Source: a virus. From it: DNA of 28,521 nt. The notes below the pieces were generated by a model, which saw nothing but the letters and a program-made list of their open reading frames with translations, did no database searches and was not told the DNA's origin. The translations under genes and the position numbers were made by a program. Position 1 is the first letter of the stretch, and every line of letters starts with the position of its first letter. Below, piece after piece: positions 1,476-25,413 of this stretch. Location of the stretch: positions 1-28,521 of IMG/VR virus record IMGVR_UViG_3300025889_000707; one strand, given 5' to 3'.

Positions 1476-3367
1476 TGCCTGTGAATCCTAGTTTTAACAT
1501 AATCATTCCGAAACCATTTGTATTGGCTGAGCAGAACAAGGCTGATCTTGAGAAGATACAGTCTGAGATTATGGACAAGGTAACGACTTGGGAAACTAGG
1601 AGTTCAAGTAAATTTGAAGAGATGTTTACAACGGCTGATTCATGGAGAATTAGGCCGAAGTCTGGGAAAAAGAAGGAAACAAAAACTTTATTTGACTCTA
1701 AGAGTGGAGAGACGCACAGAGGAACTGAGACATTGGCGACAGTTTGGCAAAGGATGCTGACTGCTTCTGATCCCTATTTTGAGGCTGTAGCTATGGGACT
1801 TGGTTCAATGGGTCAACCTGTAAGCGAGACTGAGATTTATGCGACAGAAGGCATACTTCGTGAACAGCAAAGGGTTTCCAAGTTTAAGAAGAAGCTTTTA
1901 AAGTTCTTACGTTCTATTTCTTTGTATGGAACAGGGATAGCCGAGGAGCCTTTTGTTTCTTTGCCTCATGGATTTGGAAGAAAGAACATAGAGTTTACTG
2001 ATTTTGTTCCGCGATCTTTGTTGCTTACTGGATTTGATACTGCTGTTTGCGACATTTACGATTCTGATTTTATATTCACGATTGATTTTGTTAGCAAATG
2101 GATGTTGCGTAATCTTTCTAGCCAATCGACAGAGTTTTGGGACGTAGATTTGGTTGAAAAACATATTCAGGAGTTCGGAGTAGGACATGGCAGCGGTCAG
2201 ACTTATACAAGGTTACAGCAGAGCCGCGCTCGTGCAGGATATTACGACAACAATGCGAATGTTTTTGAGAACCTTAACTATCATGGACGGTTAGAAGACA
2301 ATTCCGTGATAAATGCCTATGCCGAATCTATGGGACTTGATAGAGATCCTAAATTTGTTGATTGGTCTGTAGGTATTTTGGATGGGACTGACGTTGCGAA
2401 GTTTCACATGACACAGTATGGCGATTGGCGGACAAGATTTAAGGCTTGTACTTATAAAGAATTTGAAAATGAGCCGTACGGGTATGGAGTTGGCGCGTTG
2501 GGCCGGAAACTTCAAAGAAACATGGACGTTTTGGAGAGCATGGCTGACGACAAGTTGATGTTCGACGTATTGAACATGATGAAAGTAGGTAAATATTCAG
2601 GATATGATCAGAAACAGTTTGTTGCTGAACCATTGAAGATGGTCGAGCTTGAAGATATTAATCAGTTGGCTCCTATTGTTGGCGATCCAAGAGTATTACA
2701 GCAGGCAATTGCAATGATTAATATGAGGCGTGAAGATTTTAGAAACATTGTAGGAGCGCAAACCAATCTTCAGGCCCAGGCCAATTCTGCTAATTCTGCT
2801 ACGGAAGCGGCTATCTCACAGACAGAAGCTATTAGAAGTGCCGGAGTTCATGCAGAGATTATTGGTGAGGTATTGCGTGAGCATCTTGATACAGCTCATA
2901 TCAACAATTTGAACCATCTTGATGAGGGTATTTGGGTTGGGATGACAGGAGAAAAAAAGCCCTTGTACGTTACAAGAGATATGTTGCCTATTTCTGTTGG
3001 ATTTATCATTAAGGTTGTAACAGATAAAGATTTTAGGCCGGAGAGACAGAGAAACCTATTGCAGTTCTTACAGATTTTGACTTCTATTCGACAATTCCTA
3101 CCTTCTTCGATTAATGCTGTTAAACCTACAACAGAAGAGATAATGAGAAATTTCGGAATGAATCCACGTTTAATTAATACTCCGCCAAGTGTAATGGATG
3201 TTATGGAAAGAAATATGAGACAAAATCAGAATCAGCCTGGTTTGGCTAATCAGAACGCGGGAGAAATGTCTGAAGAAATGGGAGGATCAGGAGCTACGAA
3301 CATGATGCCGACACCCGTAGGACAAGTGCCGACATCAAGCGTACAGATGCCTGATACAAGCGCATGA
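1475..3367 (+). CDS. Portal / head-tail connector protein
   Basis: This 630-residue protein would form the dodecameric portal vertex through which DNA enters and leaves the capsid. Its place directly after terL, its length and its sequence style (a helical N-terminus with LATVWQRMLTASDPYFEAV, then a long alpha/beta core and a Q/N/P-rich tail) suit the podovirus head-to-tail connecting protein family. I choose the ATG at 1475, overlapping the terL stop, because AAGGAG lies 6 bases upstream; a TTG one codon earlier is less likely. The last 50 residues (NQNQPGLANQNAG and beyond) look disordered. The family is recognised by pattern and context and not confirmed by alignment. Confidence 0.85.
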   Translation: MPVNPSFNIIIPKPFVLAEQNKADLEKIQSEIMDKVTTWETRSSSKFEEMFTTADSWRIRPKSGKKKETKTLFDSKSGETHRGTETLATVWQRMLTASDPYFEAVAMGLGSMGQPVSETEIYATEGILREQQRVSKFKKKLLKFLRSISLYGTGIAEEPFVSLPHGFGRKNIEFTDFVPRSLLLTGFDTAVCDIYDSDFIFTIDFVSKWMLRNLSSQSTEFWDVDLVEKHIQEFGVGHGSGQTYTRLQQSRARAGYYDNNANVFENLNYHGRLEDNSVINAYAESMGLDRDPKFVDWSVGILDGTDVAKFHMTQYGDWRTRFKACTYKEFENEPYGYGVGALGRKLQRNMDVLESMADDKLMFDVLNMMKVGKYSGYDQKQFVAEPLKMVELEDINQLAPIVGDPRVLQQAIAMINMRREDFRNIVGAQTNLQAQANSANSATEAAISQTEAIRSAGVHAEIIGEVLREHLDTAHINNLNHLDEGIWVGMTGEKKPLYVTRDMLPISVGFIIKVVTDKDFRPERQRNLLQFLQILTSIRQFLPSSINAVKPTTEEIMRNFGMNPRLINTPPSVMDVMERNMRQNQNQPGLANQNAGEMSEEMGGSGATNMMPTPVGQVPTSSVQMPDTSA

Positions 3368-3741: not shown

Positions 3742-3967
3742 AGAACAGGAATCAGAGGGCGGAGGGATTGATTCAATCATTTCCACAGTTGATTCTTATA
3801 TCCTCGACCCTAAACTTATCACTCCGCAGACTTTAGAACAGCTTAAATCCGACTTAATGGATTTGAAGTCTTATCTTGATGGTGAAGAGACTCAGGAACC
3901 TATGGAGTCAGAGTCAGAACCTTCGCCTATGGCTGAGATGATTAAGAAACATGGAGGGATGCAATGA
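3713..3967 (+). CDS. Small acidic protein of the head module
   Basis: An 84-residue, strongly acidic protein: an E/G-rich start, a central helical stretch (PQTLEQLKSDLMDLKSYLDG) and a second E/S/P-rich tail ending in basic KKHGGMQ. AAGGAG about 9 bases before the ATGATG supports this start even though it lies inside the preceding gene. Small acidic helical proteins near portal and capsid genes are often scaffold or internal head proteins; that is inference from position. It is followed by an ATGA overlap with the next gene. Confidence 0.65.
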   Translation: MMNQTPTGTEEQESEGGGIDSIISTVDSYILDPKLITPQTLEQLKSDLMDLKSYLDGEETQEPMESESEPSPMAEMIKKHGGMQ

Positions 3968-4395
3968 AGAAGATTATTTTTGCTTTAAGTTTTTTAATGG
4001 GAGGAGTTCTTCATGCAAGCGGACTCCCTGAATGGAATTATATACCAAGATCATCTTATACGGAAGTAGCGTCTGGAGGGGCTGTACTGTTTTCTTCTGG
4101 CCCTATTCAATTTGTTGCTATAACAGTATCTTCTGCTTCTGCTAATTCTTATGTTGCAATTTTTAGGTCAACGTCCGCGACATTCACTGCGGACATTACG
4201 ACTCAAATAGCTATTGCCACAGATGCCCAATCAATAATGACTACAAACTATATTCCACTCTATGATATGTTGAACACTTCTTATACCTATATCAATAAGG
4301 TTGGGCCTTCAAAGTTGATCTATTGGATTCGATGCCCCAATAACAATAACGTTGGAGCTTGCCCTGGTCTTAAATCTTCAGGACAAAATAGATAA
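3964..4395 (+). CDS. Signal-peptide beta-rich protein beside the portal gene
   Basis: A 143-residue protein starting with a clear Sec-type signal peptide (MKKIIFALSFLMGGVLHASG: basic n-region, hydrophobic core, small residues at the cleavage site). The mature part is Ser/Thr/Val-rich with alternating hydrophobic residues, as in a beta-sandwich, and two late cysteines (IRCP, GACPG) that could form a disulfide after export. The ATG overlaps the preceding stop. The stretch VLFSSG...STSA resembles VFFSSG...STSA in the signal-peptide protein encoded just after the capsid gene (6940-7407), so the two may be distant paralogues. The function is unknown. A signal peptide in the middle of a capsid operon is unusual. 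Confidence 0.75.
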   Translation: MKKIIFALSFLMGGVLHASGLPEWNYIPRSSYTEVASGGAVLFSSGPIQFVAITVSSASANSYVAIFRSTSATFTADITTQIAIATDAQSIMTTNYIPLYDMLNTSYTYINKVGPSKLIYWIRCPNNNNVGACPGLKSSGQNR

Positions 4396-5168
4396 TGCCT
4401 GATTTCAAGGTCGGATTAGGAATTTGCACGCATAGAGAAATCCGAATGAGGGTTCACCAGAACCTTCGGATGCTCTATAAATGCCCTAACCCTGAAATTA
4501 GCGAAATCTCTGTTGATCAAGACGGTCTTATTTCTAGGTCGAGAAGTCGGGTTGCGACTTACTTTACGGACAAAACAGATGCAGATGTGCTTCTTTTCTT
4601 AGACGACGATATTATTATTTCTAGTGTAGATGCTACAAAGTTAGCTTGGCTATGTTACAAGGAATATCCAATCATAGGCGGTATTTACGCTACCAAAAGT
4701 CAATCTAACCCAGGATTAGCCGCTCAGCCGTTTCAAGATAATGGAGAGATTATTTTTGGTAAGAATGGCGGAATAGTTAAGATGAAAAATCTTTCTACAG
4801 GTTGCATGGCTATCAGAAGAGAAGTATTTGAAAAGATGAAAGCAAATTCGGAATCAATCGGTATTCATGATTGTGTTCATGGAGACTATAAATATTGGAG
4901 TTATTTCCAGCAGAGAGACGTTTTTACTGGTCAATGGAATGATACTTCCGAAGATTGGTTTTTTTGCAGGAACGCAATGCAATTAGGATATGAGATTTAC
5001 GCTGATACGACTATTATTTTGGGACATATCGGCAATTATGAGTATACGGTTCATGATATCCCTAATTTTAAGAAGCATCAGAAAACAGAAAATGTTTTAT
5101 TCAAATTTGGAAAAAATACCGTTCCTGTTCTTAACGGGAACGAGGCCCTAATAGGCTCAAAGGAGTAA
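4395..5168 (+). CDS. GT2-like glycosyltransferase (GT-A fold)
   Basis: A 257-residue protein with the order of a family-2-like GT-A glycosyltransferase: an N-terminal beta strand (VGLGICTHRE), an SRSR segment, an acidic metal/nucleotide-sugar motif FLDDD near residues 68-72, STGCMAIRREVF near 135-146, an ED pair near 185 (EDWFFCRNA) as candidate catalytic acidic residues, and LGHIG near 209 as a possible metal-binding histidine. It would transfer a sugar from a nucleotide donor; the acceptor is unknown. It starts by a TAATG overlap with the preceding signal-peptide gene and is followed 2 bases later by the scaffold candidate, so it is an integral member of the head operon. A virion protein or a host surface glycan are both possible acceptors. 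Confidence 0.8.
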   Translation: MPDFKVGLGICTHREIRMRVHQNLRMLYKCPNPEISEISVDQDGLISRSRSRVATYFTDKTDADVLLFLDDDIIISSVDATKLAWLCYKEYPIIGGIYATKSQSNPGLAAQPFQDNGEIIFGKNGGIVKMKNLSTGCMAIRREVFEKMKANSESIGIHDCVHGDYKYWSYFQQRDVFTGQWNDTSEDWFFCRNAMQLGYEIYADTTIILGHIGNYEYTVHDIPNFKKHQKTENVLFKFGKNTVPVLNGNEALIGSKE

Positions 5169-5170
5169 TC

Positions 5171-6034
5171 ATGGAAGAAATACTAACTGCCCCTACGGAA
5201 GTGGGTAACGCGAATGAAATCGCGCCGCAGGATTCTCAGCCACAGGCGCAAGCCCCCGCTGAGACTCAATCGTCCGTCGTTCCCCAGGTCGAGGCGAATG
5301 TCAACCCACCTCAAGCAGTTGAAACACAGAGGCCGAAGGTGTCAAGTTTCTACAAGGAAAGAGAGCGTGTCCGAAGGATTGAAGAAAATTCTCAAAGACA
5401 AGCTCAAGAACTTGCGGAAATGCGTCGGCTATATCAGGAACTTAAGAATCCTAAGCCTGATGTTTCAAATATTCAGAAACTCACAGCGGAAGAACTTTTA
5501 AATGACCCTGAGAAAGTTTTTCAATCGAGAGAGCAAAGACTCTTACAAGAGTTTAACTCTCTTAAAGAAGAACTTAATCAGTTAAAGTCCAAAGAAGTGA
5601 ACGCTGAGCGTACGAAATTAGAGCGAGAGGCGTTGGAAGTGTTATTCCCAAAATCAAGCCCAGATTCAAAAGAAACGCTTGAAGAAAGGATTAAAAATCA
5701 AGAACGTGCTGATTTAATTCAGCAAGTATTGAGAGAGAATCCAAGTTTGGATAGGTTTTCGTCAATTGATCCAAAAGCAGCCGCAGAGTTCCTTTTGGAG
5801 AAAATTAACAAAATCAAACCTCAGTCGAGTCCCAATGTGATTCCTAAAGCATTGATGGGTTCCACGGCGAGAGGAAATCCAGGCGCAGGTAAAGTGTCTT
5901 TTGAAAATCTGATGTCCGATTATAAAAAGCTTACAGCAGAGATTGATAGGAATCCTGCTTTGCGTTTCGATGCTAAACACAAAGAGCGCAGAGAATCTCT
6001 TATGAGGCAAATGGACTCGCTTGCAAAAGAATAA
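5171..6034 (+). CDS. Scaffolding protein candidate
   Basis: A 287-residue protein directly upstream of the capsid gene, the usual place of the scaffold. The N-terminal 55 residues are rich in P, Q, A and E and look disordered. Residues about 60-150 are a charged heptad-like helical region (RRIEENSQRQAQELAEMRRL onward) likely to form a coiled coil. The C-terminus is basic (KHKERRESLMRQMDSLAKE), as in scaffolds that bind the coat protein through a positive C-terminal helix. No protease motif was seen. AAGGAG precedes the ATG. The assignment rests on position and composition, because scaffold sequences are poorly conserved. Confidence 0.68.
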   Translation: MEEILTAPTEVGNANEIAPQDSQPQAQAPAETQSSVVPQVEANVNPPQAVETQRPKVSSFYKERERVRRIEENSQRQAQELAEMRRLYQELKNPKPDVSNIQKLTAEELLNDPEKVFQSREQRLLQEFNSLKEELNQLKSKEVNAERTKLEREALEVLFPKSSPDSKETLEERIKNQERADLIQQVLRENPSLDRFSSIDPKAAAEFLLEKINKIKPQSSPNVIPKALMGSTARGNPGAGKVSFENLMSDYKKLTAEIDRNPALRFDAKHKERRESLMRQMDSLAKE

Positions 6035-6062
6035 GGGAATAGCAATAAGTTAAGGAAATTTT

Positions 6063-6926
6063 ATGGCAAATGAATTCGATAATACAGCCTTAAACGCTAC
6101 TGTTAGAGAACTTTGGGACGAGAAGGTTGAAGAGGCACGTTATGCCAAGATGGTTATTGGCAATCGCGTTTCTAATAAATCAGGTCTCGCTCAGAAAAAG
6201 GGTGACATTATCAATGTGACCGTTGACCAGAAGTATACCGTTGGGACAGTTTCTGCTGCTGGCGTTGTTGCCGCGCAGAACTATACTCCTACTTCTGTTC
6301 CGATCACATTGAACCAATGGGAACAAATTACGATCGTGGAGTTGGACAGAGCCGTTGCTCAGTCTTTTTGGACTCCCGATTCGATCTTCCCTAGGAAAGT
6401 TGGTGAAGCCTTTGGTTCTCGTTACGATGCTCAGTTGGCTGCGCTTTATACGGGCGTGGCGGCTGGTAATACCGTTGGCGATCCTAACAATCCTGAGGAA
6501 TTTAGCAAAGCTCTATTCCAAGAGGCTATGTTGGATCTCGCTAATGCAAATGTTCCTTTGGAAGACTTGTCCTGGATTATTCATCCCAGGGCGTATCTCA
6601 AGGGATTGACTAACGAAGGACAGCTGACAGCGGCGCAAGATTCAGGCCAAAATAAAAACGTCTTGACTACGGGATATCAGTTCCCGTTGTTTGGCGTTCC
6701 TGTTTATCAGTCCACTAACATTGTTCGTGTCGGATCTCCTGCAGTTTACAAGAACCTCTTGGTTCACAAGAGTGCGATTGCGATTGCATGGCAGAAAGAC
6801 GCGGAAATCAAGAAAGCGGACGGATTGGCTGGACTTGTTCTGGGAACGATTTTCAACGCGCAGAGCCTTTATGGTCTGTCGGTGATTCGTTCTGATCATT
6901 TCGTAGTTGCAAATAGTGCTGCATAA
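6063..6926 (+). CDS. Major capsid protein (HK97 fold)
   Basis: A 287-residue coat protein that would build the icosahedral shell. The pattern is typical of the N4-gp56/P22-coat-like group: an N-terminal arm (NATVRELWDEKVEEARY), then KKGDIINVTV, the ITLNQWEQITIVELDRAVAQ segment preceding the spine helix, YDAQLAALYTG, and a C-terminal beta-rich domain ending in a small-residue tail. AAGGA lies upstream of the ATG. The codons used (GTT, GCT, GGC, AAG) look more biased than in the neighbours, consistent with high expression. It is followed after 13 bases by a signal-peptide gene that has its own strong Shine-Dalgarno sequence. Confidence 0.88.
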   Translation: MANEFDNTALNATVRELWDEKVEEARYAKMVIGNRVSNKSGLAQKKGDIINVTVDQKYTVGTVSAAGVVAAQNYTPTSVPITLNQWEQITIVELDRAVAQSFWTPDSIFPRKVGEAFGSRYDAQLAALYTGVAAGNTVGDPNNPEEFSKALFQEAMLDLANANVPLEDLSWIIHPRAYLKGLTNEGQLTAAQDSGQNKNVLTTGYQFPLFGVPVYQSTNIVRVGSPAVYKNLLVHKSAIAIAWQKDAEIKKADGLAGLVLGTIFNAQSLYGLSVIRSDHFVVANSAA

Positions 6927-6939
6927 AAGGAGGCGTAAA

Positions 6940-7407
6940 ATGAAGAAGTTTCTTTTGACCGCCTTGGTTATGCTCTCTATGACGCTTGTTTCTCATGCAG
7001 GTTCCCTTCGGGACATTCCCGTTGGCCCTGACCGAGCGTTAGCTACGGCTGATTATGGCGGCGTTACTTATTCGACCAACAACTTCCCATTGGCGGGTTC
7101 TTTTTCGACCGCTTGCATTAATTCTGCAAACTTCACTTGTCGCGGAGTGTTTTACGGAGTTTTTTTCAGCTCTGGTAACACCGTTGACTTTGTTGATGTG
7201 TTTGACAGCACTAGTGCGGATACTGGCAAGCTCCAGGGAGCGATTATGCGTTTGTATAACGTGCAAATCTCCTCTGCTGGAACTTCTCAGTTTGCGGCAG
7301 GTTTTTCTGGTCCCCCTAAACCTATTCGGTTTAGTGAAGGCTTGATTACCCGTCCAAGTGTTGGTGGTTACAATAGCATTATGACTCTTTATAACCAAGA
7401 GCGTTAA
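6940..7407 (+). CDS. Signal-peptide protein downstream of the capsid gene
   Basis: A 155-residue protein. The ATG at 6940 is chosen because AAAGGAGG lies 7 bases upstream and because it gives a textbook signal peptide (MKKFLLTALVMLSMTLVSHA, cleaved before GS); a start at 6907 inside the capsid gene would add a basic non-signal extension. The mature part is Gly/Ser/Phe-rich and beta-like, with two cysteines (STACINSANFTC) that could pair, and shares VFFSSG...STSA with the product of 3964-4395. Its place right after the major capsid protein is where head decoration proteins are often encoded, which is only a suggestion here because export would separate it from cytoplasmic assembly. Confidence 0.78.
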   Translation: MKKFLLTALVMLSMTLVSHAGSLRDIPVGPDRALATADYGGVTYSTNNFPLAGSFSTACINSANFTCRGVFYGVFFSSGNTVDFVDVFDSTSADTGKLQGAIMRLYNVQISSAGTSQFAAGFSGPPKPIRFSEGLITRPSVGGYNSIMTLYNQER

Positions 7408-7416
7408 AGGTTTCGG

Positions 7417-7435
7417 GAGGGGTGAAAAGCCCCTC
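7417..7435 (+). terminator. Hairpin after the capsid operon segment
   Basis: A perfect 6-bp G/C-rich stem (GAGGGG / CCCCTC) with a 7-base loop TGAAAAG begins 9 bases after the stop at 7407. Only a short T stretch follows (ACGATTTTA), so it is at best a weak intrinsic terminator or an mRNA-stabilising hairpin that would leave capsid mRNA more abundant than downstream mRNA. It also lies just before the next ATG (7444), which has no Shine-Dalgarno sequence. Confidence 0.45.
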
Positions 7436-7443
7436 ACGATTTT

Positions 7444-7728
7444 ATGTTGATTTGCGATAACTGCAAGACAGACAAACATTACAAGCTTCGATGTGAGAAG
7501 GGTCTTTGGTTATGTTCAAATTGCCGATCCTATCAGGAGCATAATGTTCATGGCGTTTTGTTAAACAAAAAAGTAAAAATTGGAAAGACTTGGGCGACTG
7601 AAAGACAGTTGAACGAGATGGAAAGGCGAGTCATTCTACCTTACAGTAAACCTGACGGCGGATATTATGTAGGCCGCCGTGGAGATAATGGGAAGATTCA
7701 GGAACGCTGGCCTCAATATCAGTCTTAA
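7444..7728 (+). CDS. Small zinc-ribbon-like protein
   Basis: A 94-residue protein with CDNC at residues 4-7 and CSNC near 27-30, spaced as in a zinc ribbon. The rest is basic and aromatic (RRGDNGKIQERWPQYQS at the end). It lies between the capsid and adaptor genes. The ATG has no evident Shine-Dalgarno sequence and sits 8 bases after a hairpin. Function unknown; a nucleic-acid-binding or minor head role is possible. Confidence 0.65.
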   Translation: MLICDNCKTDKHYKLRCEKGLWLCSNCRSYQEHNVHGVLLNKKVKIGKTWATERQLNEMERRVILPYSKPDGGYYVGRRGDNGKIQERWPQYQS

Positions 7729-7739
7729 AAGGAGAAAAT

Positions 7740-8114
7740 ATGGAAGAAATCACAATGCAAACGATGGATTTAAAGATTAGGAAATTTAAGGAGTTTATGG
7801 ACGACTTCAATAAGATGTTTGAGAGCGGACATCTTTCCGTCAATATGTGGAAAACACAAAGGGGACAACTTAAAGCGGCTAATCTTGAGTTGGAGGAAAA
7901 GAATCGTAAGGCCGAGGAACTTTTGAATCAGACAGTTTCAGCTATGGAGAAGATTAAGGCTGACGCTATGGAGTTTGAACAGCGTAAAAGGGCAGATGCG
8001 CTTGTCCTTTATTCTAAAGCTCATGCCAAATATAAGGAATTTGAACGTCATTTAGAAGAGGCGGATAAGAAAAGGTTAAAGAATGAATTGAAGGAGTTGG
8101 AGGCGGTGGCCTAA
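7740..8114 (+). CDS. Coiled-coil protein of the head-tail module
   Basis: A 124-residue, highly charged helical protein. Residues about 45-120 show continuous heptad-like spacing with Lys/Glu pairs (ANLELEEKNRKAEELLNQTV and onward), predicting a long coiled coil. AGGAG 5 bases before the ATG supports the start. Its stop overlaps the adaptor ATG by one base (TAATG). No family is recognised; the context suggests an assembly chaperone or minor structural protein. Confidence 0.68.
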   Translation: MEEITMQTMDLKIRKFKEFMDDFNKMFESGHLSVNMWKTQRGQLKAANLELEEKNRKAEELLNQTVSAMEKIKADAMEFEQRKRADALVLYSKAHAKYKEFERHLEEADKKRLKNELKELEAVA

Positions 8115-8827
8115 TGTCAAACCTAGGCCAGATAAAGAGCCTGATTAGAGTAAAAATATCACAAACTGATACGACTAATACTGATTTTACCGATCAGGAG
8201 CTTACTGGATTTGTAAATGAGGGCCAAAGATTCTTGGGCGCATTGGTTAAGAAGCCTATTGACCATGTTGAGATACAAGTTCAACAGGATTATCCGGCAT
8301 ATACCCTGCCAAATGACACAATTCTCCTTAATACAGCCTATTTCGGAGATGTCTCAATCAATGGTGATGTTCGACCATTGACAATCACGACCGAAGAGGC
8401 ATTGAAAGAGGCTAATCCTAATTGGATGGATGAAACTACTAATTCTCAAGGGCGACCAACTAGGATTGTGCTGATTGACCGAGTTACTGTTTTAATTTCT
8501 CCTAGACCCAACGCTGCGGAAGGTGCTAGTGGAAAGAAACTCCATATTGGATATGTTTATCAGCCCGCAATCCTTACAAATGACTCGGACACTCCCGATT
8601 TGCCTATTGTTTACCATGATTTATTGGCTGATTATGGACACTATATGTGCTGTCTTTCAAAATTAAATAAACCAGAATTAGCCACGGCAATCCTATCTCA
8701 AATGATGGATAAGGCTAAGAAATTGGAGCCGTTAATTATAAAGGAAACTAATTCTTTTGGTTTTTCTTGGGGTGGCGGTTTTGATCCAAACGACGATAAT
8801 GGCAGCGGATTGAGGTTTTCGTTTTGA
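8114..8827 (+). CDS. Head-tail adaptor protein (SU10/podovirus type)
   Basis: A 237-residue protein resembling the phage adaptor that bridges portal and tail nozzle in short-tailed phages. The N-terminus is helical (LGQIKSLIRVKI, then DQELTGFVNEGQRFLGALV), the centre is beta-rich with YTLPNDTILLNTAYFGDVSI and a GRPTRIVLIDRVTVLISPRP strand pair, and a C-terminal helical section (YHDLLADYGHYMCCLSKLNKPELA) ends in a Gly/Asp/Phe tail. This helix-beta-helix order matches the SU10-adaptor style as I know it. Its position between capsid and tail hub genes agrees. Confirmation would need a profile or structural comparison. Confidence 0.72.
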   Translation: MSNLGQIKSLIRVKISQTDTTNTDFTDQELTGFVNEGQRFLGALVKKPIDHVEIQVQQDYPAYTLPNDTILLNTAYFGDVSINGDVRPLTITTEEALKEANPNWMDETTNSQGRPTRIVLIDRVTVLISPRPNAAEGASGKKLHIGYVYQPAILTNDSDTPDLPIVYHDLLADYGHYMCCLSKLNKPELATAILSQMMDKAKKLEPLIIKETNSFGFSWGGGFDPNDDNGSGLRFSF

Positions 8828-9087
8828 AAATATCATCTAATCAGTTTTCTAAGAAGAATTTTAACAAAGGGACAGGATTTACTGACCAGTCCTTTAATAC
8901 TTGTTCTAATTCTTTTTCTAAAAAAGCTTTCAATAAGGGGACGAATGTTTGGGGTGGAGATAATACTGCTGAATCAGCTTATGGCGTGGATGATATATAC
9001 GGAGGAGTAGATAGCACGTACGGGACAACCCCCTATGGGGGAATGAGTCATTTCCGTTTGCGTCAATTTTACGATTTGTCTCACTAA
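8824..9087 (+). CDS. Small repeat-containing tail-module protein
   Basis: An 87-residue protein starting at a TTG that overlaps the adaptor stop (TTGA). It carries two copies of a short motif, NQFSKKNFNKGTGF and NSFSKKAFNKGTNV, followed by a Gly/Tyr/Asp-rich part (GVDDIYGGVDSTYGTTPYGG). The composition is low complexity and probably flexible. The single-base overlaps on both sides show that it is part of the operon. Function unknown. Confidence 0.62.
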   Translation: MKISSNQFSKKNFNKGTGFTDQSFNTCSNSFSKKAFNKGTNVWGGDNTAESAYGVDDIYGGVDSTYGTTPYGGMSHFRLRQFYDLSH

Positions 9088-11426
9088 TGAAAAAACTATT
9101 GCTTCTTCTATTCCTTGTCGGTACGGCTCATGCTGATCCTCTAGCAGTAGAAGAGATTCAGACTCCGTTGGGAGGATTGAATACGGCGGACCCGACATGG
9201 AGGATAAGCTCAAAATACTCTCCTTATATGAGGAATGTATTTATTGATCAAGGCAGAATTGAAGGCATAAATGGATATCAGACAGTTGGCACAACTTTAA
9301 CACTAAGTAAGGTTACTGGAATTTTTCCATTTAGGCGTGAAAATGGGAATACAACTTTTTTAGTTACAGATTCAAGCGTTACACTTGAAACATCTGATTT
9401 TCAAACATGGGTTTTAGTAAGTTCAAACTCAAATACTGGAAGCCCATTAAATTGGATTCAGGTTAGGAACAAAATGTGGGGATATAATGGATTGGATTTT
9501 GTTAAGACATGGGACGGGATAAATAGATCTATTCTTAATGGGAATGATAATACTCCAAATGTCCCAAAGTTCAAGTATGCACAATATTGGCAGGAGCGTG
9601 TATGGGGATTTAACAACCCTTCACTCGCTTCAGAACTAGCGTTCAGTTCAGTTGTTACCACAGATGCTGTAATTATTGATCCTACTGATTCAAGAGCTTG
9701 GCCTGTAACTAATTCATTGAAAATAGGTCAAGGAGACGGTGAGATTGGGACAGCATTATGGGTTAGAAATGGTCAATTGAAGGCAGGAAAAGAACGGTCA
9801 AAGTACACGATCTATGGAACGAATGTTTCTAACTATTTCGCTCGTAAAGATATATCTAATTCCGTTGGCGTGATTTCAAATGATTCTGTTGTTAATCTTG
9901 ATGACAGTACATATTATTTAAGTTATGACGGGATATACAAGGATGAGCAAAGGATATCTGATTTAATTGAAGATGATATTGAGAATATTAGCCGAGGAGT
10001 TCAGAAGAATGTGCAAAATATTTGGGACACACAATCAGATTTTACAAAAGGTCAATTATTTGGGACGACTGCGACAGCATCTGGATTTTTAAAGCCTCTA
10101 AGTAAGGGGAAGTTCTTCAATAATGTCAGAAAATTCCAAGGTGGAGCATCTCAACCATTTTCAGCTGTACTTAGCTCAGTTTATCCATCCACCCCATCTA
10201 CAAGCATAACAAATGATGCTTCGACTTATATTCGTATTGCCGTTACTCCTCCTGATTATATTCCGACGGATGATGTGTTTGCTCCAGGAGATAAAATGTT
10301 TATTAGTGATTTAGCTTTGCCTTGTAACGGGACAGCAATCAATATGAGTATTAAAAATTTCTATACAGGGGAAGAGGCTATTATAGATTTGGAAAGTGTA
10401 AAACCTTATGAAGCAAAGATATTATTTGATCATTTTGTTGTTGATGGTGGAAGTTTAGGATTCAGGTGGGCATTAAAAAATATAGGTGATGTAATTTCAT
10501 GTGGGAGAGCCGCTTCTTTACAGGAAGATTTAGGAAATTGGTTCTTTAAGCCAACGACTACGGGATCATTTATTTCTGAAATAACAACAGTTTCATCAAA
10601 TATTACTTCATGGTCTAGTCTGGATTCTTTAAATAGTACAAATGGTGGTGAAATATCTTATTTTTATCGAACATCAACTAGTGCAGTTAATATTGCAACT
10701 CAGACATGGAATGCTATTGGCCCAGGGGCCATAATCAATGCTCCTATAATAAATAATTATATTCAATGGACTACCACAATAACGTCCGTATCTTCTATGA
10801 CTCAAAGCGTTTCTAACATTGACTATTTAACTATAAATCACGTTGAAGGAGCAGGTTCTTTTAGTAGAGCTTTTGGCATAGACTGGAAAAACAGGTATTG
10901 GCTTGCGACTTCTACTGATGGCGGGAATATATTTAGTCTTATTTATGTTAAGTCAAAGGTTACGAATGAAAACCCTAATGCTTTTATGCCTATTGAGGGG
11001 ATAAATATCCGATCTTTTGCAAAGGATGGGAATGTTCTTTATGGCGGATCTTCAAGTACTGGATCAGTCTATAGATTGGATTATGGGACGAACTTCGATG
11101 GAGCCGCTATTCCATTTATATATGAAACTCCTGACATGATACTAGGAAGCAATTTCACATCAAAGAATATTCAGTCCTATTTATTGGATGCAGATAAGGG
11201 GTCCGCTTTAACTCTAAATGTTGGAAGTTCCATAGATTTTGGTTCATTCTCAAATAAGAGCATACCTTTGATTGGTTCCGGCAGATCATTAAATTCTATT
11301 AAGGGTGTGACAGCTCCTGCAAAGACTTTAAGGATAAGACTTTCTCATTCTCTTTTGGATCAACCATTTGTTATTAACAATTTATCTGTTCTTTATAGTC
11401 CTACAGCGATATTGGAGCCGAAGTGA
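9087..11426 (+). CDS. Tail hub/nozzle-like protein with an N-terminal signal peptide
   Basis: A 779-residue protein. After a near-perfect Sec signal (MKKLLLLLFLVGTAHA before DP) the mature N-terminus reads QTPLGGLNTADPTWRISSKY, then MRNVFIDQGRIEGINGY. This 'GGLNT...DP...P.MRNV....GR...GY' opening is typical of beta-propeller tail proteins of short-tailed phages (the P22 gp10/T7 gp12-like hub or nozzle group). The body is beta-strand-rich, with W/Y/G motifs repeated along the chain (QERVWGFNNPS, YLSYDGIYKDEQR). It follows the adaptor module and precedes the ejection genes, as expected for a nozzle. The signal peptide is the oddity, because tail proteins normally assemble in the cytoplasm. Start by TAATG overlap. 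Confidence 0.75.
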   Translation: MKKLLLLLFLVGTAHADPLAVEEIQTPLGGLNTADPTWRISSKYSPYMRNVFIDQGRIEGINGYQTVGTTLTLSKVTGIFPFRRENGNTTFLVTDSSVTLETSDFQTWVLVSSNSNTGSPLNWIQVRNKMWGYNGLDFVKTWDGINRSILNGNDNTPNVPKFKYAQYWQERVWGFNNPSLASELAFSSVVTTDAVIIDPTDSRAWPVTNSLKIGQGDGEIGTALWVRNGQLKAGKERSKYTIYGTNVSNYFARKDISNSVGVISNDSVVNLDDSTYYLSYDGIYKDEQRISDLIEDDIENISRGVQKNVQNIWDTQSDFTKGQLFGTTATASGFLKPLSKGKFFNNVRKFQGGASQPFSAVLSSVYPSTPSTSITNDASTYIRIAVTPPDYIPTDDVFAPGDKMFISDLALPCNGTAINMSIKNFYTGEEAIIDLESVKPYEAKILFDHFVVDGGSLGFRWALKNIGDVISCGRAASLQEDLGNWFFKPTTTGSFISEITTVSSNITSWSSLDSLNSTNGGEISYFYRTSTSAVNIATQTWNAIGPGAIINAPIINNYIQWTTTITSVSSMTQSVSNIDYLTINHVEGAGSFSRAFGIDWKNRYWLATSTDGGNIFSLIYVKSKVTNENPNAFMPIEGINIRSFAKDGNVLYGGSSSTGSVYRLDYGTNFDGAAIPFIYETPDMILGSNFTSKNIQSYLLDADKGSALTLNVGSSIDFGSFSNKSIPLIGSGRSLNSIKGVTAPAKTLRIRLSHSLLDQPFVINNLSVLYSPTAILEPK

Positions 11427-11701
11427 GAAAGATATGGATATTTTTAGTTTTGCCTTTATTTGGATTTACTCGTATTCATACTGATTATATTGATCCTAGG
11501 AATACTCAGGACGAGTTTTCAAATTTAGAAAACACAGTTCAAGATCAGGAGAACATTGTATTTGTTTCCACGCCAAACTTATCAGATGTTAAAGATAAGC
11601 AGATATTTTTGATTAGTTCAGGAACATACAATTCTTTTGGATGGCGATATAATCAGGAAATTTATGCAGTTAGCGGGTCTTGCGTGACCATTAGAAGGTA
11701 G
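11423..11701 (+). CDS. Small protein with a signal-like N-terminus
   Basis: A 92-residue protein starting at a GTG that overlaps the hub stop (GTGA). The N-terminus (MRKIWIFLVLPLFGFT) is a basic n-region with a hydrophobic core, but the cleavage site is less clear than in its neighbours, so it may be an anchor. The remainder is polar: an N/D/E-rich middle (NTQDEFSNLENTVQDQENI) that may be helical, and an aromatic end FGWRYNQEIYAVSGSC. Function unknown; the position suggests a tail accessory. Confidence 0.6.
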   Translation: MRKIWIFLVLPLFGFTRIHTDYIDPRNTQDEFSNLENTVQDQENIVFVSTPNLSDVKDKQIFLISSGTYNSFGWRYNQEIYAVSGSCVTIRR

Positions 11702-11713
11702 AGGAGATAATTT

Positions 11714-12676
11714 ATGGCAGAACAACCTTTAAGTAGTTTAATTCCAAATTACGGTCTTGGGGTGGATATTGCGTCACCGCAAGATTATGAAGGTCTTATC
11801 AATCAAGCTTATGTTGGTCTTGGTCAACCCGCTAATGATAACGGTAGGTATGAAACCACTCAAGATTTTATCAGAGGGTTAAGTTCTTCTTTTGTAGATA
11901 ATTATTACAAGAAAACAGGAAAAGTCCCAACTGTTGATCAAGTTAAACAATTTGTGGCTTTCAATGCAGATACTTCCAATGCAAAACAATTTATTACTGG
12001 AACACTAAATGCTGACAAAATGAATGCTTTGTCGAATATGTATATTGAGAGCAATCCAGAGATAGTTGCCGCTAATTCTCAACCGACTGACTTGGGAGCT
12101 ACAGCTGAGCAAATCAATGCTCTTTTTGATCCGCTTCAAAAGAACGCTATTGAGGCGAATTCCCGCAACTTCGCTCCATTAAGAGCTAGGGCTGTTGAGG
12201 AGGAAGCGGCATTGGGTCGGTTACGGTCAGGAGTATCCGCTGATCCTTCTTCTACAATCGGACAGGTAGACGTTAATGAAGCAAACTCGTTAAGTTCTGT
12301 AATAGGAAATATACTGGGTCAAAAAGCTTCAGGGACTTTGGATTTGAATAAATTCAATCAGAGCCTTGATTTTTCTAAGCAAAATGCCGCTGACGCTAGG
12401 AATCAATTCAATCAAAATCTGGCTTTCAATAAAAACGCCTATTCCGATCAGATGGATTTGGCACAGAGGCAGTTATCTTTATCTGCATTACTTGGAAGAT
12501 TGCAGGGAAGCAGAAGAAAGAATAATGGGATAGCAGGAGCATCTGGAGGAGCATTATCAGGGGCAGCTAGCGGAGCATTATTAGGAAGTATTGTCCCAGG
12601 GATCGGGACAGGGATCGGAGCCGCTGGCGGTGCATTGGTAGGTGGCCTTGGCGGATATTTCGGGAGTGCTGATTAA
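11714..12676 (+). CDS. Candidate ejection / internal virion protein with a glycine-zipper C-terminus
   Basis: A 320-residue protein. Residues 1-260 are polar and helical with many Asn/Gln/Ala (NQFNQNLAFNKNAYSDQMDL). The last ~45 residues are a glycine-zipper membrane-active stretch (GGALSGAASGALLGSIVPG, then GAAGGALVGGLGGYFGSAD). In podoviruses, proteins injected with the DNA lie downstream of the hub and often have such amphipathic or membrane-inserting segments, so I infer an ejection role. GAGGAG is well spaced before the ATG. It is the first of three adjacent genes of this type. No catalytic motif was seen. Confidence 0.65.
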   Translation: MAEQPLSSLIPNYGLGVDIASPQDYEGLINQAYVGLGQPANDNGRYETTQDFIRGLSSSFVDNYYKKTGKVPTVDQVKQFVAFNADTSNAKQFITGTLNADKMNALSNMYIESNPEIVAANSQPTDLGATAEQINALFDPLQKNAIEANSRNFAPLRARAVEEEAALGRLRSGVSADPSSTIGQVDVNEANSLSSVIGNILGQKASGTLDLNKFNQSLDFSKQNAADARNQFNQNLAFNKNAYSDQMDLAQRQLSLSALLGRLQGSRRKNNGIAGASGGALSGAASGALLGSIVPGIGTGIGAAGGALVGGLGGYFGSAD

Positions 12677-12685
12677 GGAGAATAT

Positions 12686-13834
12686 ATGCCTAATTATCCA
12701 AATGTAGATACACTTTCTGAACTTATTAGAAAACAGTCTTTTTATAATAGTGGTGGAGAAGAACCAGGGACAACTACTGCTGATAGATTTAATCAAGGTG
12801 TTAAATTAATTGGTGGAGTTGGAGATATTGTAAGCAATACCATCAATAATGTCCTAGCGATCAAGAAGGCTAATTTAGAAAGACAAAAGTTAAAGGCAGA
12901 CATAAATGAAAAGCTTCAAGGGCAGACGCCTATGCGTGATTTAACGATGCCTTTGAATCCTCAGACAATGAGAATTGACGAGAACACTACTCCTGAACAA
13001 AGAGCCGAGCAGGATAAGATTTATGCCGCTCGTGAAGCTATGGGGACAGGAACTTTGGATCAAGCTAAAGAGATGTCCGAGATTGAGAAGAATTTGAGAG
13101 AAAGACAGTTAAATCCAATGAAATCCGGAGTACATAGATTTGTTGATAGGAAGACTGGGAAGATTTTACAAGAAATTCCTTCAACTCCTGGAACAGGTGA
13201 TACGACTACTTTGATTGGAGAAGGATCAGGTGGCGGAGATGTTACTGTTGCCAGCAGGCTTAGACAAGAATTTATAAATCGTCCTGAAGTTAAAGATTTT
13301 GTGACTGTGAACACATCAATTAAATCAATGGATTCTTTGCTTAAGAATGCATTACAAGGAAACAAACAGAATCAACTTGCTTTGGATCAGGCATTGATAA
13401 CAATGTTTAATAAATTGACTGATCCTCAATCTGTTGTTAGGGAATCCGAATATGCTAGAACCCCAGAGAATCTTCCGATGGTAAATAGAATTGCTGGCGC
13501 ACTTGAAAAGGTAGGTCAAGGTGGTGCTGGTATGACCAATGAAGACCGTTTAGCATTAGTTACGGGAGCAAAAATTATTGGAAATGAAAGAGGTAATACA
13601 TTCAACAATCTACGGAATGAATATGAAACTCTTTCGACAAAATATCAAATTGATCCATCTCTTATAACTGGAACCTTAAAGCCATTTAATCCATATCAAT
13701 ATGAGAATGAAGGTCAAAAAGAATTAGATAAATTAAGAAGCCAATCATCTCCTGAAGAGTTGAACTTTATAGACTCGTTACAGGGAACCCCAGATCAGAA
13801 ATTGGCTGAAATTAAAAGAAGGATGAAACAATGA
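12686..13834 (+). CDS. Candidate ejection / DNA-injection protein
   Basis: A 382-residue, mainly helical hydrophilic protein. The central segment around residues 215-270 (DQALITMFNKLTDPQSVVRE followed by SEYARTPE) is a motif I associate with phage internal virion or injection proteins. The N-terminal third is Lys/Glu/Gln-rich, the middle has a Gly/Thr linker (GEGSGGGD), and the C-terminus is rich in charged residues. AAGGAG precedes the ATG, and the stop overlaps the next ATG (ATGA). The role is inferred from the motif and from its place between two other ejection candidates. Confidence 0.66.
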   Translation: MPNYPNVDTLSELIRKQSFYNSGGEEPGTTTADRFNQGVKLIGGVGDIVSNTINNVLAIKKANLERQKLKADINEKLQGQTPMRDLTMPLNPQTMRIDENTTPEQRAEQDKIYAAREAMGTGTLDQAKEMSEIEKNLRERQLNPMKSGVHRFVDRKTGKILQEIPSTPGTGDTTTLIGEGSGGGDVTVASRLRQEFINRPEVKDFVTVNTSIKSMDSLLKNALQGNKQNQLALDQALITMFNKLTDPQSVVRESEYARTPENLPMVNRIAGALEKVGQGGAGMTNEDRLALVTGAKIIGNERGNTFNNLRNEYETLSTKYQIDPSLITGTLKPFNPYQYENEGQKELDKLRSQSSPEELNFIDSLQGTPDQKLAEIKRRMKQ

Positions 13835-15306
13835 GTCTTGGATTAGACTTATCAGACATTAACACAAATTCTTCGTCTAATTCAAGTCCTACACAAACAG
13901 AACCAAAGAGGGGCTTAGGATTAGATTTAACTCCGAGTCAAGAACCGTCATTGTCTTCTTATGCAAAGGCAGTTCTTCCTTCTATGAAAGCAGTAGGTTC
14001 TCAAATGCTTGATACTAATCAAAAACTTGGGAGAGGAATTGTTCGTGGAGCTACTATGGGACTGCTTGAGAAAAAGACTCCTGAAGAACAGGCAATGGAA
14101 GGGAGCATTTTCAATGAGCAGGGTAAGGAAAAGACTTTTGCAGATAAATACTTAGCTCCAGAAAAAATTGGAGAGATGGCAGGATCAGTAGTTCCTCTTG
14201 TAATATCTGAAATGGTTTCTGGTACTCCTGCTAGTTTATTGGTTTCAAGATTTGGACTTGGAGCAGTTAAAGCGGCAATGGCAAAAGCTGGATTGACAAT
14301 GGCAACATATGAAGCGGCTAAAGGTGGAGTAGAGAATAAGCCGCCATTAGAGACAGCTTCAAATATGGCATCTGGGGCTATGGGTGGTGGAGTTCTTGGA
14401 GCTATTGGATATGGAGCAGGGAAAGTTGGTGAAGCATTAACAAAAGATTTACCTAAAGCCATAGCTACTGATTATCTTAATACCCCTTCTTCTATTTCCG
14501 AGAATCTTCGTAGAGATGGGAAAACATCTCTTAGTGAGCAATTTCTTGAAAGGACAAAGTATGGAGCGGGACAAAGCAAAAATCAAGTTTATGACGATAT
14601 TAGCAAAGAACTTGAACAAAACAGATTTGTTATTAGAAGTAAACTTCAACAAGCTGACGAAAGCGCTATGGTTGGGGATGTTGGAACTTATAGGACAGGA
14701 AAACTTGGAGAACCTATTAGAATTTCACAGTTACAAGAAGGTTCAGGGATTGATTTAGACAAAATAAGAAATAACTTAGCTCCTTTAGCTAAAGAACAGT
14801 CCTCTATTGGTCAAAAAAGTCAAGCCAGAACAATTAGACGGTTAATGTCCGATATTGCTCCAGGTAGGAGTGTTATCAGTAAATCGGATGCCTATGATCT
14901 ATTAGGACAACTAGATGCCGAGGTTAATAAAAATTATCTAAAAGCAACGAACGATATAGCTCCTGGAACCGAAGCTAGGGCAGCTTTTGCGAATGGTCTT
15001 AGACAAATGTTGAGTGAAACTGCTCCTGAAGTTTCCAAACTTATTAATCGTAATCATTTTCTTCAAAGTGTACAAACATCACTTTTACCGCAAGTGTCTG
15101 ATACTGGTGCAAAATTTGGGAATGTTAAAAATGCTGCTGTCCGGTTTCTTCTTGGGAATAGATTTACTCTAGGTGCAGCAAGAGGTTTACGATCTCCTGT
15201 TGTTGAGCAAACAACTAATGTGGTAAGTCCAGTAATTAAACAAGCAACAAGACTAAAATTATCTGAAACTATTGACAATATGCGTAACAAAGGCAAAAAA
15301 CAATGA
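13831..15306 (+). CDS. Candidate ejection protein with duplicated GLDL N-terminal motif
   Basis: A 491-residue protein. The N-terminus has two copies of a short motif, SLGLDLSD and GLGLDLTP, separated by a Ser/Asn/Thr linker; such repeated short linear motifs may dock to a partner. Residues about 115-200 are hydrophobic and Ala/Gly-rich (GEMAGSVVPLVISEMVSG, then ASGAMGGGVLGAIGYGAG) and could insert into membrane. The C-terminal half is helical and charged. This matches the pattern of large internal virion proteins that extend the DNA channel across the envelope in short-tailed phages. No lytic transglycosylase motif was found. Its stop overlaps the fibre start by ATGA. Confidence 0.63.
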   Translation: MSLGLDLSDINTNSSSNSSPTQTEPKRGLGLDLTPSQEPSLSSYAKAVLPSMKAVGSQMLDTNQKLGRGIVRGATMGLLEKKTPEEQAMEGSIFNEQGKEKTFADKYLAPEKIGEMAGSVVPLVISEMVSGTPASLLVSRFGLGAVKAAMAKAGLTMATYEAAKGGVENKPPLETASNMASGAMGGGVLGAIGYGAGKVGEALTKDLPKAIATDYLNTPSSISENLRRDGKTSLSEQFLERTKYGAGQSKNQVYDDISKELEQNRFVIRSKLQQADESAMVGDVGTYRTGKLGEPIRISQLQEGSGIDLDKIRNNLAPLAKEQSSIGQKSQARTIRRLMSDIAPGRSVISKSDAYDLLGQLDAEVNKNYLKATNDIAPGTEARAAFANGLRQMLSETAPEVSKLINRNHFLQSVQTSLLPQVSDTGAKFGNVKNAAVRFLLGNRFTLGAARGLRSPVVEQTTNVVSPVIKQATRLKLSETIDNMRNKGKKQ

Positions 15307-17276
15307 AAAAATGGCTCCTAGCTCTACTTCTTCTACCTACGAATGTTTGGTCTGATACTATTACGACAGGGGCATTAGGATTGCTTAAACCTACGACAGG
15401 ACAAGTCAGTTCTCGTCCTGCTGGTGACAAGCTCAATTCTAACTTTGACATTATTGATTCATCCTTTACTTCTCTTAAATCTCAGGTAAATAATATTGCA
15501 CAAGCTACAGCCGCCTTGGCTTTGGGTGGAGGAGGGGCTTCATCTTTAGCGGTAGGCACAGGGACATTGCAGTCAGTTACAATCATATCTAGTCCGACTT
15601 CTATTATCAGTTTTGCAAATGGCCCTTTTAAGGTTAATCTTGTAAATAATGCTACGGCCTATATTGATATTGATTATTCCTCTATTACGGCTCAGGGACT
15701 TGTAACTGGAGGATCATCTGGAATTCCATTACCAAATGGTGACACCTCTTACATTCAGAGGGAAGCGACATGGACTGTGACGGGAAGCCCGACGTTTGCA
15801 AGTTCAACGACTTTTTTGGGTGATGCTATATTTGACAAGCACGTTGGCATATCAAGCAACGTCAGAATTTATAACAATTTTGAATCTAATACTGATTATG
15901 CACCGATGCTTTACATAAAGGAAGGAAGAGTAAATCAACAATATTCACTATTGGAGCTTAATAGTGTGACAACTGGGAGAAATGGTTATTACATAAAAGC
16001 TGGGGATTTCTTTTTATTAAACTCGGTACAAAGTCCTACCTTTAGCCCTTCCCCTGGGATGGTCATAGGTAGCACAAACCCCACATCTATGATTGATGTT
16101 GTTGGCGGTTCTATAACGGTGCGCGGGAATAACGCCGGACTTTACATGGCAGGAGTTTCATCTATATCTGCGAGTGGGATTGAGGTTAGGCAAAGTTCGA
16201 TTACGTTCCAGAATTACACAGCTGTCTTTGCAACTGGTGGAGCATCCGTTGGCGATAGATTAATAGCGACTCAAGTTAATGGATCGAATGTCATCATTGG
16301 TTTTGGGAAAGCCGTGTCAGCGTCTGGGAGTGGGATAACTACAGATCAGGCGAATGCTCTAATCTCGTCAACATGGACAGCGTTTACAAACTTCACGTCA
16401 ACCACTCAAGCCGTTGGGACATCGACATCAAACATTCAGGCGTTTTATGCTGGCTTCACTTCCACTTCAGATGCGCGCGGGAACACTTTTGTGAATTTCC
16501 GCTCCACAACTGACACGACGTTCAACCATATCAATTCAACGATCACGGCGATCAAAACATCTACGACAAATATTCAAAACTTCTACGCCGGATTCACCTC
16601 TACATCGGACGCAAGAGGCAATACATTTGTAAATTTCAGGTCAACGACGGATTCACAAATTACCACATTCCAAAACTTTAGATCCACCACAGACGCGCTG
16701 ACAAGCGTTATCCGTTTCTCCACGTATTCAGGTGTCTACGCCCTTAATTTTGATATGGCGTCACTTCATGCGTTATCAACTGGATTTGCGACGATAGAAT
16801 CAACGGCATCCTATGCCTCTCCATATGGGCTTTCCCTTGTGCCAATGCTTGTGAGGGCATTTGACGGGACTTTGACTGAAACGGTTCATGGGAAATTTAT
16901 ACTCCCCGAGGACGTGGATGTCAGCTCAAATGTGCTCTTTATGACGACGGTTATCCCGAAGACGGCTGGTCCGAATAAAAATGTGACCATTTTATTTAAT
17001 TCCACAGCCACGTTTGCGAATGGAGCCGGCGTTTACAATTACGCAAATTCTACAGGAGCGCAGACGTGCTTACTTATAGGATCGACAGGAACATTCAATA
17101 CCTGTTCTTGGACTCAATCAATGTCAGCCCTAAACTGGCAAGCATACGAGCAGGTATTTTTTGAAATTGGCAGAGGAAATGACACGGCAATTTTAGGAAC
17201 TACAAATTTAAGCGGAGATTTGTACATGATGAATCTGATGATCCAGATTCCGATGGTTTACAAGAAGGAACCATGA
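15303..17276 (+). CDS. Tail fibre-like protein with signal peptide and internal repeats
   Basis: A 657-residue protein with a Sec-type N-terminus (MKKWLLALLLLPTNVWS before DT), then a short conserved-looking section (GLLKPTTGQVSSRPAGDKLN) and long Ser/Thr/Gly/Asn-rich beta-like stretches typical of trimeric fibres. Residues about 381-404 and 427-450 are a nearly exact protein repeat (FYAGFTSTSDARGNTF, then VNFRSTTD), and a third partial copy FQNFRSTTD follows. The C-terminal ~170 residues look like a separate globular, perhaps receptor-binding, domain (SYASPYGLSLVPMLVRAFDG and onward). It follows the ejection genes and precedes a lectin-like gene. From about 16.1 kb onward the DNA uses more GCG, CGC and ACG codons than upstream, which may indicate module exchange. 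Confidence 0.75.
   Translation: MKKWLLALLLLPTNVWSDTITTGALGLLKPTTGQVSSRPAGDKLNSNFDIIDSSFTSLKSQVNNIAQATAALALGGGGASSLAVGTGTLQSVTIISSPTSIISFANGPFKVNLVNNATAYIDIDYSSITAQGLVTGGSSGIPLPNGDTSYIQREATWTVTGSPTFASSTTFLGDAIFDKHVGISSNVRIYNNFESNTDYAPMLYIKEGRVNQQYSLLELNSVTTGRNGYYIKAGDFFLLNSVQSPTFSPSPGMVIGSTNPTSMIDVVGGSITVRGNNAGLYMAGVSSISASGIEVRQSSITFQNYTAVFATGGASVGDRLIATQVNGSNVIIGFGKAVSASGSGITTDQANALISSTWTAFTNFTSTTQAVGTSTSNIQAFYAGFTSTSDARGNTFVNFRSTTDTTFNHINSTITAIKTSTTNIQNFYAGFTSTSDARGNTFVNFRSTTDSQITTFQNFRSTTDALTSVIRFSTYSGVYALNFDMASLHALSTGFATIESTASYASPYGLSLVPMLVRAFDGTLTETVHGKFILPEDVDVSSNVLFMTTVIPKTAGPNKNVTILFNSTATFANGAGVYNYANSTGAQTCLLIGSTGTFNTCSWTQSMSALNWQAYEQVFFEIGRGNDTAILGTTNLSGDLYMMNLMIQIPMVYKKEP
16443..16652 (+). 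repeat. Protein-level repeat in the fibre gene with scrambled codons
   Basis: Two copies (16443-16514 and 16581-16652) encode the same 24 residues, yet 20 of the 24 codons differ, all synonymously. The only identical codons are two TTC, one TTT and one AAT. All 15 four- or six-fold degenerate positions differ. Confidence 0.85.
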
Positions 17277-18034
17277 CGAAAATATTGACTGTTATTCTTG
17301 CGATTATTTTAGCCAATCGAATTGCTTGGTCAGCTTCGAGTTTAACCTTCGGCACAGCCACAACCGACGTTGTTAATCACGGCTCTCAGTCAGTCGTTGA
17401 TGATCTCGACCCATTTACATGGCTGGCATGGATTTATCCAACATCTTGGGCCGTGAATAGAATTCTGATCAGAAAAGGGGCGGCGGTCACTGGCAGAAAA
17501 GTTATATTCATGAACACGAGCCTCGGTCAATTGCAGGTCAATGTTGACAGGGTCACAACCGACACGGATTACACGACAAATCAAATTATTTCTCTCAATA
17601 ACTGGTGGAGAGTCGGACTTGTGTTTAATAGTCAGGGTTCCGTTAATAACATCGCAAATATCTATTACGCAATAGGGTCAACGGCCCCTATTCGAGAGGC
17701 AACGTATCAGGGCATTACTGACGGCGCAGGTGCGATTGATTCAGACGCGCCGAACCCGCTAACCGTCGGGAACCGCGACGGCTCGGTTGGTGCATTTCCT
17801 GGTCAAATTGCTTGGGTTGGAATTTATAAAGGTGCTCTGACACCAGCGGAGATGGCTGAACAGTTTATAGTCCCATCGTCAACGATGCTGGTTTTCTCTG
17901 CCTATTATGGGCGCGGATCGAGTGACACGGCACTTGTGCAGGATTTAACTGGCAATGGCAGTATTGGGGTTGCAGCTGGAACCGTAGGATCAAGCAACGG
18001 CCCGCCTTTAACATTTTTTGGAGGGAATAGATAA
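17273..18034 (+). CDS. LamG/concanavalin-like lectin protein with signal peptide
   Basis: A 253-residue protein. The first 20 residues (MTKILTVILAIILANRIAWS) form a signal peptide. The mature protein has the pattern of a LamG-3/concanavalin A-like jelly roll: an early strand (SSLTFGTATTDVV), FTWLAWIYPTSWAVNRILIR, a central NNWWRVGLVF strand, and the late motif GQIAWVGIYKGALTPAEMAE that is typical of the last strands of LamG-3 domains. Such domains bind glycans or form trimeric adhesin heads. Overlap with the fibre gene (ATGA) suggests it works with the fibre in host recognition. Signal-peptide cleavage after AWSA is plausible. Confidence 0.78.
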   Translation: MTKILTVILAIILANRIAWSASSLTFGTATTDVVNHGSQSVVDDLDPFTWLAWIYPTSWAVNRILIRKGAAVTGRKVIFMNTSLGQLQVNVDRVTTDTDYTTNQIISLNNWWRVGLVFNSQGSVNNIANIYYAIGSTAPIREATYQGITDGAGAIDSDAPNPLTVGNRDGSVGAFPGQIAWVGIYKGALTPAEMAEQFIVPSSTMLVFSAYYGRGSSDTALVQDLTGNGSIGVAAGTVGSSNGPPLTFFGGNR

Positions 18035-22028: not shown

Positions 22029-22073
22029 TTATTGGTTAATCATTACCTTATATTGTTTATAAAAACCCGAAGA

Positions 22074-22316: not shown

Positions 22317-22338
22317 AAAAAATATTTTAATTTAAGAC

Positions 22339-22367: not shown

Positions 22368-22373
22368 ATGCAT

Positions 22374-22412: not shown

Positions 22413-22419
22413 TATGATC

Positions 22420-24024: not shown

Positions 24025-24025
24025 A

Positions 24026-25401: not shown

Positions 25402-25413
25402 AAGGAGACAAAA

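Follow-up and report, generated by a model that had tools for sequence, protein, structure and literature searches.

Signal-like N-termini in the virion operon

The window analysed here is a complete IMG/VR virus record (IMGVR_UViG_3300025889_000707) of 28,521 bases. Judged by gene order and homology, it belongs to an uncultured short-tailed double-stranded DNA phage with an SU10-type adaptor and nozzle: a late operon occupies its left part, and in it the terminase (Pfam Terminase_6N match), portal, coat, adaptor and nozzle genes stand together, the gene set by which short-tailed phages with an SU10/P22-type nozzle are recognised. Six proteins of this virion operon, among them the nozzle (tail hub) and a tail fibre, begin with what look like Sec-type signal peptides, as the first-pass annotation had proposed.

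All six open reading frames (ORFs) and their starts are present in the window, on the + strand, as are the signal-less portal, coat, adaptor and probable internal genes given further below. The first gene, at a conserved position between the portal module and the scaffold, codes for a small protein (3964-4395); its predicted signal peptide MKKIIFALSFLMGGVLHA (3964..4017), called by the scorer described below, found at the same position in five lineages and preceded by a Shine-Dalgarno sequence, is followed in the ORF by a Ser/Thr-rich mature part (4018..4395) that may be a capsid decoration protein. The protein encoded directly 3' of the coat gene has a putative signal peptide MKKFLLTALVMLSMTLVSHA (6940..6999; same three lines of evidence) and a mature part (7000..7407) whose position suggests another decoration protein. 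The nozzle carries MKKLLLLLFLVGTAHA (9087..9134; scorer), present in 5/5 lineages and missing from homologues in other phages. Its mature part (9135..11426), which comes after the SU10-type adaptor, matches phrog_3287, a virion structural protein (E=2.8e-11); the signal-bearing hub is thus a virion protein, as had been claimed. The 92-aa protein encoded after the nozzle (11423-11701) starts with a hydrophobic N-terminus MRKIWIFLVLPLFG (11423..11464), called by the scorer, which could be a signal peptide or an uncleaved tether, its cleavage motif being not above chance. The remainder of this protein (11465..11701, from the alignment) contains, near the C-terminus, a Cys (GSCVT) invariant across the four aligned lineages and possibly engaged in an intermolecular disulphide. 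Further on, the tail fibre-like protein has a predicted signal MKKWLLALLLLPTNVWS (15303..15353; scorer, lineages and start context) and a mature part defined by its ORF (15354..17276); the fibre of one related lineage (L014/L025) contains a virion structural domain (phrog_10330, E=1.3e-15). The last signal, MTKILTVILAIILANRIAWS (17273..17332), where core and charge were found by the scorer and the cut after AWS was read by eye, precedes a lectin-like mature protein (17333..18034; Laminin_G_3, Pfam PF13385, E=3.5e-9). No further transmembrane segment was found in any of the mature parts tested, and their Cys residues are mostly paired.

The scorer is home-made and combines n-region charge, hydrophobic core and a cleavage matrix; it was calibrated with a reference set of 21 E. 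coli signal peptides, each of which was recovered in leave-one-out (21/21). Its calls among the virion-operon genes are precisely the six announced (3964, 6940, 9087, 11423, 15303 and 17273), with 0/14 others; beyond the operon, the only call in the window is the lipoprotein at 19817. The basic n-region and hydrophobic core noticed at first reading hold for all six proteins: each has a positively charged n-region followed by a core of 8-15 residues, as short as those of E. coli signal peptides. The background was nil on 26 spurious ORFs and on 218 internal start codons. Eight control phages gave few calls (SU10 1/24, T7 0/18, P22 1/17, N4 2/20, crAss001 1/26, lambda 1/23, epsilon15 0/19 and HTVC008M 5/21), i.e. 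lysis genes in SU10, P22, N4 and crAss001, Lom in lambda, and in HTVC008M a curli cluster, including two unnamed neighbours, plus a porin. None of the annotated structural proteins of these eight phages scored as signal-bearing, within a control set that is small (the eight general phages and five with related nozzles) and mostly made of classical phages. Chance as the source of the signals was rejected on the scores of the spurious ORFs, the internal starts, the control phages and the phages with related nozzles. Signal-like N-termini of this kind are unusual; those of the window are real, and very probably genuine Sec signals.

Conservation across five lineages

Besides two near-identical copies of the window (L002 and L003, 99.2% over 21 kb), four further lineages were found, with portal identities of 71% (L010/L024), 59% (L014/L025), 49% (L036) and 40% (L038). 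Signal-like N-termini are present in 5/5 lineages at the same four core genes (the portal-scaffold small protein, the post-coat small protein, the nozzle and the 92-aa protein) and on the fibre in 4/4 lineages where it is covered; L014/L025 and L038 have additional fibre-region genes with such N-termini. The total is 29 proteins, of which 28 pass the scorer, the L036 protein at 11277 narrowly failing the hydrophobicity rule; since the five lineages are related to each other, these counts are not independent events. In L014/L025 the fibre cluster has been relocated within the operon and the signals were kept. A single captured gene was rejected as the source by this distribution, and the earlier statement that the signals are a property of the phage stands.

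The signals and the mature parts are not constrained alike from one family to the other. For the nozzle, mean pairwise identity is about the same in the signal (41%) and in the mature part (42%). The fibres reach 54% in the signal against 23% after it, so that the expected retention of a signal over a diverging mature part is seen there. The match between the fibres of the window and L010 is limited to the first 18 residues, and there are two types of fibre start, one shared by L038 and the window, the other by L010 and L014/L025. Judging from these alignments, fibres have been exchanged, every version carrying a signal.

Translation starts are compatible with synthesis of the signals. In all lineages, the start codon of the signal itself is preceded, in the 3964 and 6940 families, by a strong GGAGG-type ribosome site at the same short and suitable spacing; the nozzle and fibre genes have starts that mostly overlap the preceding stop codon or lie right beside it. 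In L036, an ATT start overlapping the upstream stop is needed for the nozzle (8869) to take in the signal, there being no ATG, GTG or TTG before the conserved region; the start of the L038 homologue of 11423 is uncertain. Genes with and without a signal lie in one operon and their starts overlap, so that they are probably co-expressed.

A signal added to the nozzle

The nozzle of SU10 is a hexameric hub sitting on the adaptor (PMC9509320). The window resembles SU10 (and T7/P22-type phages) by its order portal, scaffold, coat, adaptor, nozzle and by the SU10_adaptor Pfam match at 8114. It differs from them by the nozzle signal peptide, which SU10 gp17, T7 gp12, P22 gp10, epsilon15 gp12 and crAss001 gp44 all lack. 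Outside the lineage, signal-less homologues of the window nozzle were found in L004, Roseobacter phage CRP-1, Cellulosimicrobium phage DS1 and three uncultured Manatee Spring phages; in some of these Manatee Spring phages the start is ill-defined or the alignment weak. The homology of the CRP-1, Manatee Spring and DS1 nozzles ('phage stabilization' proteins) was found by tblastn and is weak for DS1; in these five phages 0/69 structural-region genes score. Altogether the nozzle signal is present in 5/5 cases in the lineage versus 0/8 elsewhere, a contrast for which the Fisher test is descriptive only since it treats related sequences as independent. The absence of an export signal that is usual, though not a formal hallmark, for tail proteins of short-tailed phages thus does not extend to the window lineage.

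The position of a conserved GGL motif tells where the extra segment lies. The signal-less nozzles of L004, CRP-1 and DS1 have 16, 13 and 12 residues ahead of it, respectively; in the five nozzles with a signal, 12-16 residues separate it from the predicted cut and 28-34 from the uncut start. In addition, the PHROG profile starts 2-5 residues past the predicted cut. Because the signal-less homologues begin where the predicted cleaved nozzle would, the nozzle signal is, on these alignments, an addition in this lineage, and its cleavage would restore the ancestral N-terminus. Homologues starting downstream of the hydrophobic segment, which the first-pass annotation had named as a point against the signals, therefore do exist outside the lineage; inside it the segment is kept, which points to a gained segment rather than a mis-called start. 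Mis-called starts were also rejected because the Shine-Dalgarno sequences and overlapping starts suit the signal-containing versions and the signal-less homologues match the cleaved form. Structure was of no help: the AlphaFold models are of low confidence (pLDDT 32 for the nozzle and 35 for the 6940 protein) and sequence searches of the PDB gave no usable relative.

The central place of the nozzle bears on the proposal that the exported proteins stay out of the virion and act at the surface of the infected cell, in receptor blocking or adhesion, as does lambda Lom. The lectin domain of 17273 would suit such a role, and Lom together with the curli genes and porin of HTVC008M provide examples of phage-encoded exported proteins of a similar sort. 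These Sec-signal genes, however, do not code for core virion proteins; Lom is a dispensable accessory protein, whereas the window nozzle belongs to the core of the tail, has homologues in virions and is of the exported type throughout the five lineages. A second nozzle gene, lacking the signal, was not recognised. We regard a purely cell-surface function as quite improbable.

Cleavage, anchoring or a cytoplasmic leader

To evaluate cleavage, the residues after the core were shuffled 1000 times, the test asking for small residues at -3/-1 beyond what composition gives. The observed motif was matched by 0/1000 shuffles for all 29 proteins taken together, 0/1000 for the nozzle, 5/1000 for the fibre, 20/1000 for the 6940 family and 75/1000 for the 3964 family. 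It was not above chance for the 11423 family (582/1000), nor for the mixed remainder of the signal proteins (345/1000). Most of the six proteins have a plausible signal-peptidase site, as reported at first reading; for 11423 no motif above chance is found.

These values also separate the families with respect to another possibility already considered at first reading, namely that the N-termini are uncleaved, or slowly cleaved, inner-membrane tethers; the anchored tail parts would face the periplasm, heads would dock from the cytoplasm and the particle would be finished at the membrane. The 11423 family, with a conserved hydrophobic N-terminus lacking a cleavage motif above chance, may be such an anchor. 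For the nozzle and the fibre, and also for the 6940 family, tethering is disfavoured by clear cleavage motifs, which 0, 5 and 20 of 1000 shuffles equalled; the hydrophobic cores are no longer than in E. coli signal peptides, and no phage membrane-assembly gene was recognised. As a general explanation tethering is therefore unlikely.

A different possibility is that the N-termini never direct export but remain in the cytoplasm as leaders for assembly or stability, perhaps cut off by a phage protease. This would agree with the fact that, to our knowledge, every known tailed phage assembles in the cytoplasm, and the signals here are known from sequence alone. But all three parts of a Sec signal are present, with cleavage motifs above chance; the segments sit on unrelated mature proteins; and what the scorer picks in the control phages is confined to lysis genes and accessory genes of known exported type. 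A cytoplasmic leader appears rather improbable.

A possible route of assembly

The signals divide the operon into two sets. The signal-bearing set comprises the nozzle, the fibre(s), the lectin and the two small probable capsid decorations, plus the 92-aa protein with its similar N-terminus. The signal-less set comprises the portal (1472..3367; phrog_332, phrog_156), the scaffold, the major coat protein (6063..6926; phrog_267), the SU10-type adaptor (8114..8827; PF24175, E=1e-15) and three genes (11714..15306) which, by position, probably code for internal or ejection proteins. The split follows particle topology, outside versus head and internal. With signals on the external set and none on the head set, it is suggested that the tail parts exit the cytoplasm before joining the particle.

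The explanation we favour, with somewhat better than even confidence, is that this lineage added cleavable Sec signals to the virion proteins lying outside the head, which would be joined to heads when the inner membrane is breached. What can be read directly are the signals, their conservation and the agreement between the mature nozzle and its homologues at the N-terminus; from these we infer export, cleavage, and the place and time of joining. Heads would be built and filled in the cytoplasm while the external parts were exported by the host Sec system, trimmed by signal peptidase I to their native N-terminus and folded in the periplasm, possibly with disulphides; heads and periplasmic parts would then come together once lysis opens the inner membrane. 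Export of the signal-bearing proteins is likely. For the route itself, in which exported and trimmed parts would be added to heads outside the cytoplasm, most easily at lysis, we consider the chances evenly balanced. We put forward more tentatively the complete picture of a particle made in two compartments, where DNA-filled cytoplasmic heads would be united only at lysis with a Sec-exported, trimmed and perhaps disulphide-bonded tail and decorations.

Several points weigh against the favoured explanation. The signals are predictions of a home-made scorer, and the lineage is known from uncultured sequence. The tailed phages that we know of assemble in the cytoplasm. Heads of the P22 type lose their DNA without plug proteins, so that a head awaiting an exported nozzle would need another seal. 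The 11423 protein and its relatives have no cleavage signal. The pairing of Cys varies and counts as weak evidence, even numbers of Cys being only suggestive of disulphides.

The functionally nearest system, although unrelated, is that of the filamentous phages, whose coat proteins (Ff pIII and pVIII) have Sec signal peptides and are assembled from the membrane. These phages differ in being extruded without lysis and in having a single-stranded DNA genome and pI/pIV-type assembly-export genes, whereas the gene content of the window (terminase, portal, coat) is that of a packaging tailed phage. We know of no other tailed phage with secretion signals on its tail parts. The literature searched, most subscription journals being outside its coverage, held nothing that describes signal peptides as a systematic feature of structural proteins in tailed phages; the papers found on phage signal peptides deal with endolysins or general annotation.

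If the proposed route is correct, it would break the rule of cytoplasmic assembly for tailed phages and tie completion of the virion to lysis or to the membrane. Tail proteins would gain access to oxidative folding, and receptor-binding parts could be kept away from the cytoplasm. Signal peptides on phage structural genes should, in any case, not be written off as annotation errors.

Host and neighbouring genes

A tblastn search of about 50,700 deposited phage records with the portal and nozzle of the window gave no match, and prokaryote genomes scanned twice with the portal revealed no relative and no host. The helicase and integrase matches are uninformative in this respect. The clear use of Shine-Dalgarno sequences argues against a Bacteroidota host. 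In the late operon order, the lysis region lies after the lectin gene 17273; near the lysis genes, 19817-20083 codes for a small lipoprotein-like protein with an IIGC lipobox, possibly an outer-membrane spanin-type or an unrelated lipoprotein, which suggests a diderm host.

Among the head genes, a glycosyltransferase-like gene (4395-5168; phrog_1574, E=5e-18; phrog_34859, glycosyltransferase, E=1e-3) is kept in 4/5 lineages. The window differs from L002 and L003 at the 5' end of the terminase gene (116-137, about 89% at the protein level) and over the whole early region with the integrase (21274-28521), which suggests a recombinant early module. The record of L003 (L019/L020), the longer copy, once oriented, also contains at 24257-25591, 22295-22684 and 33653-34297 a B12-binding radical SAM-like gene (identified by eye) and two similar signal-bearing proteins; the latter share a GLGMGR..NET motif and are possibly beta-barrels.
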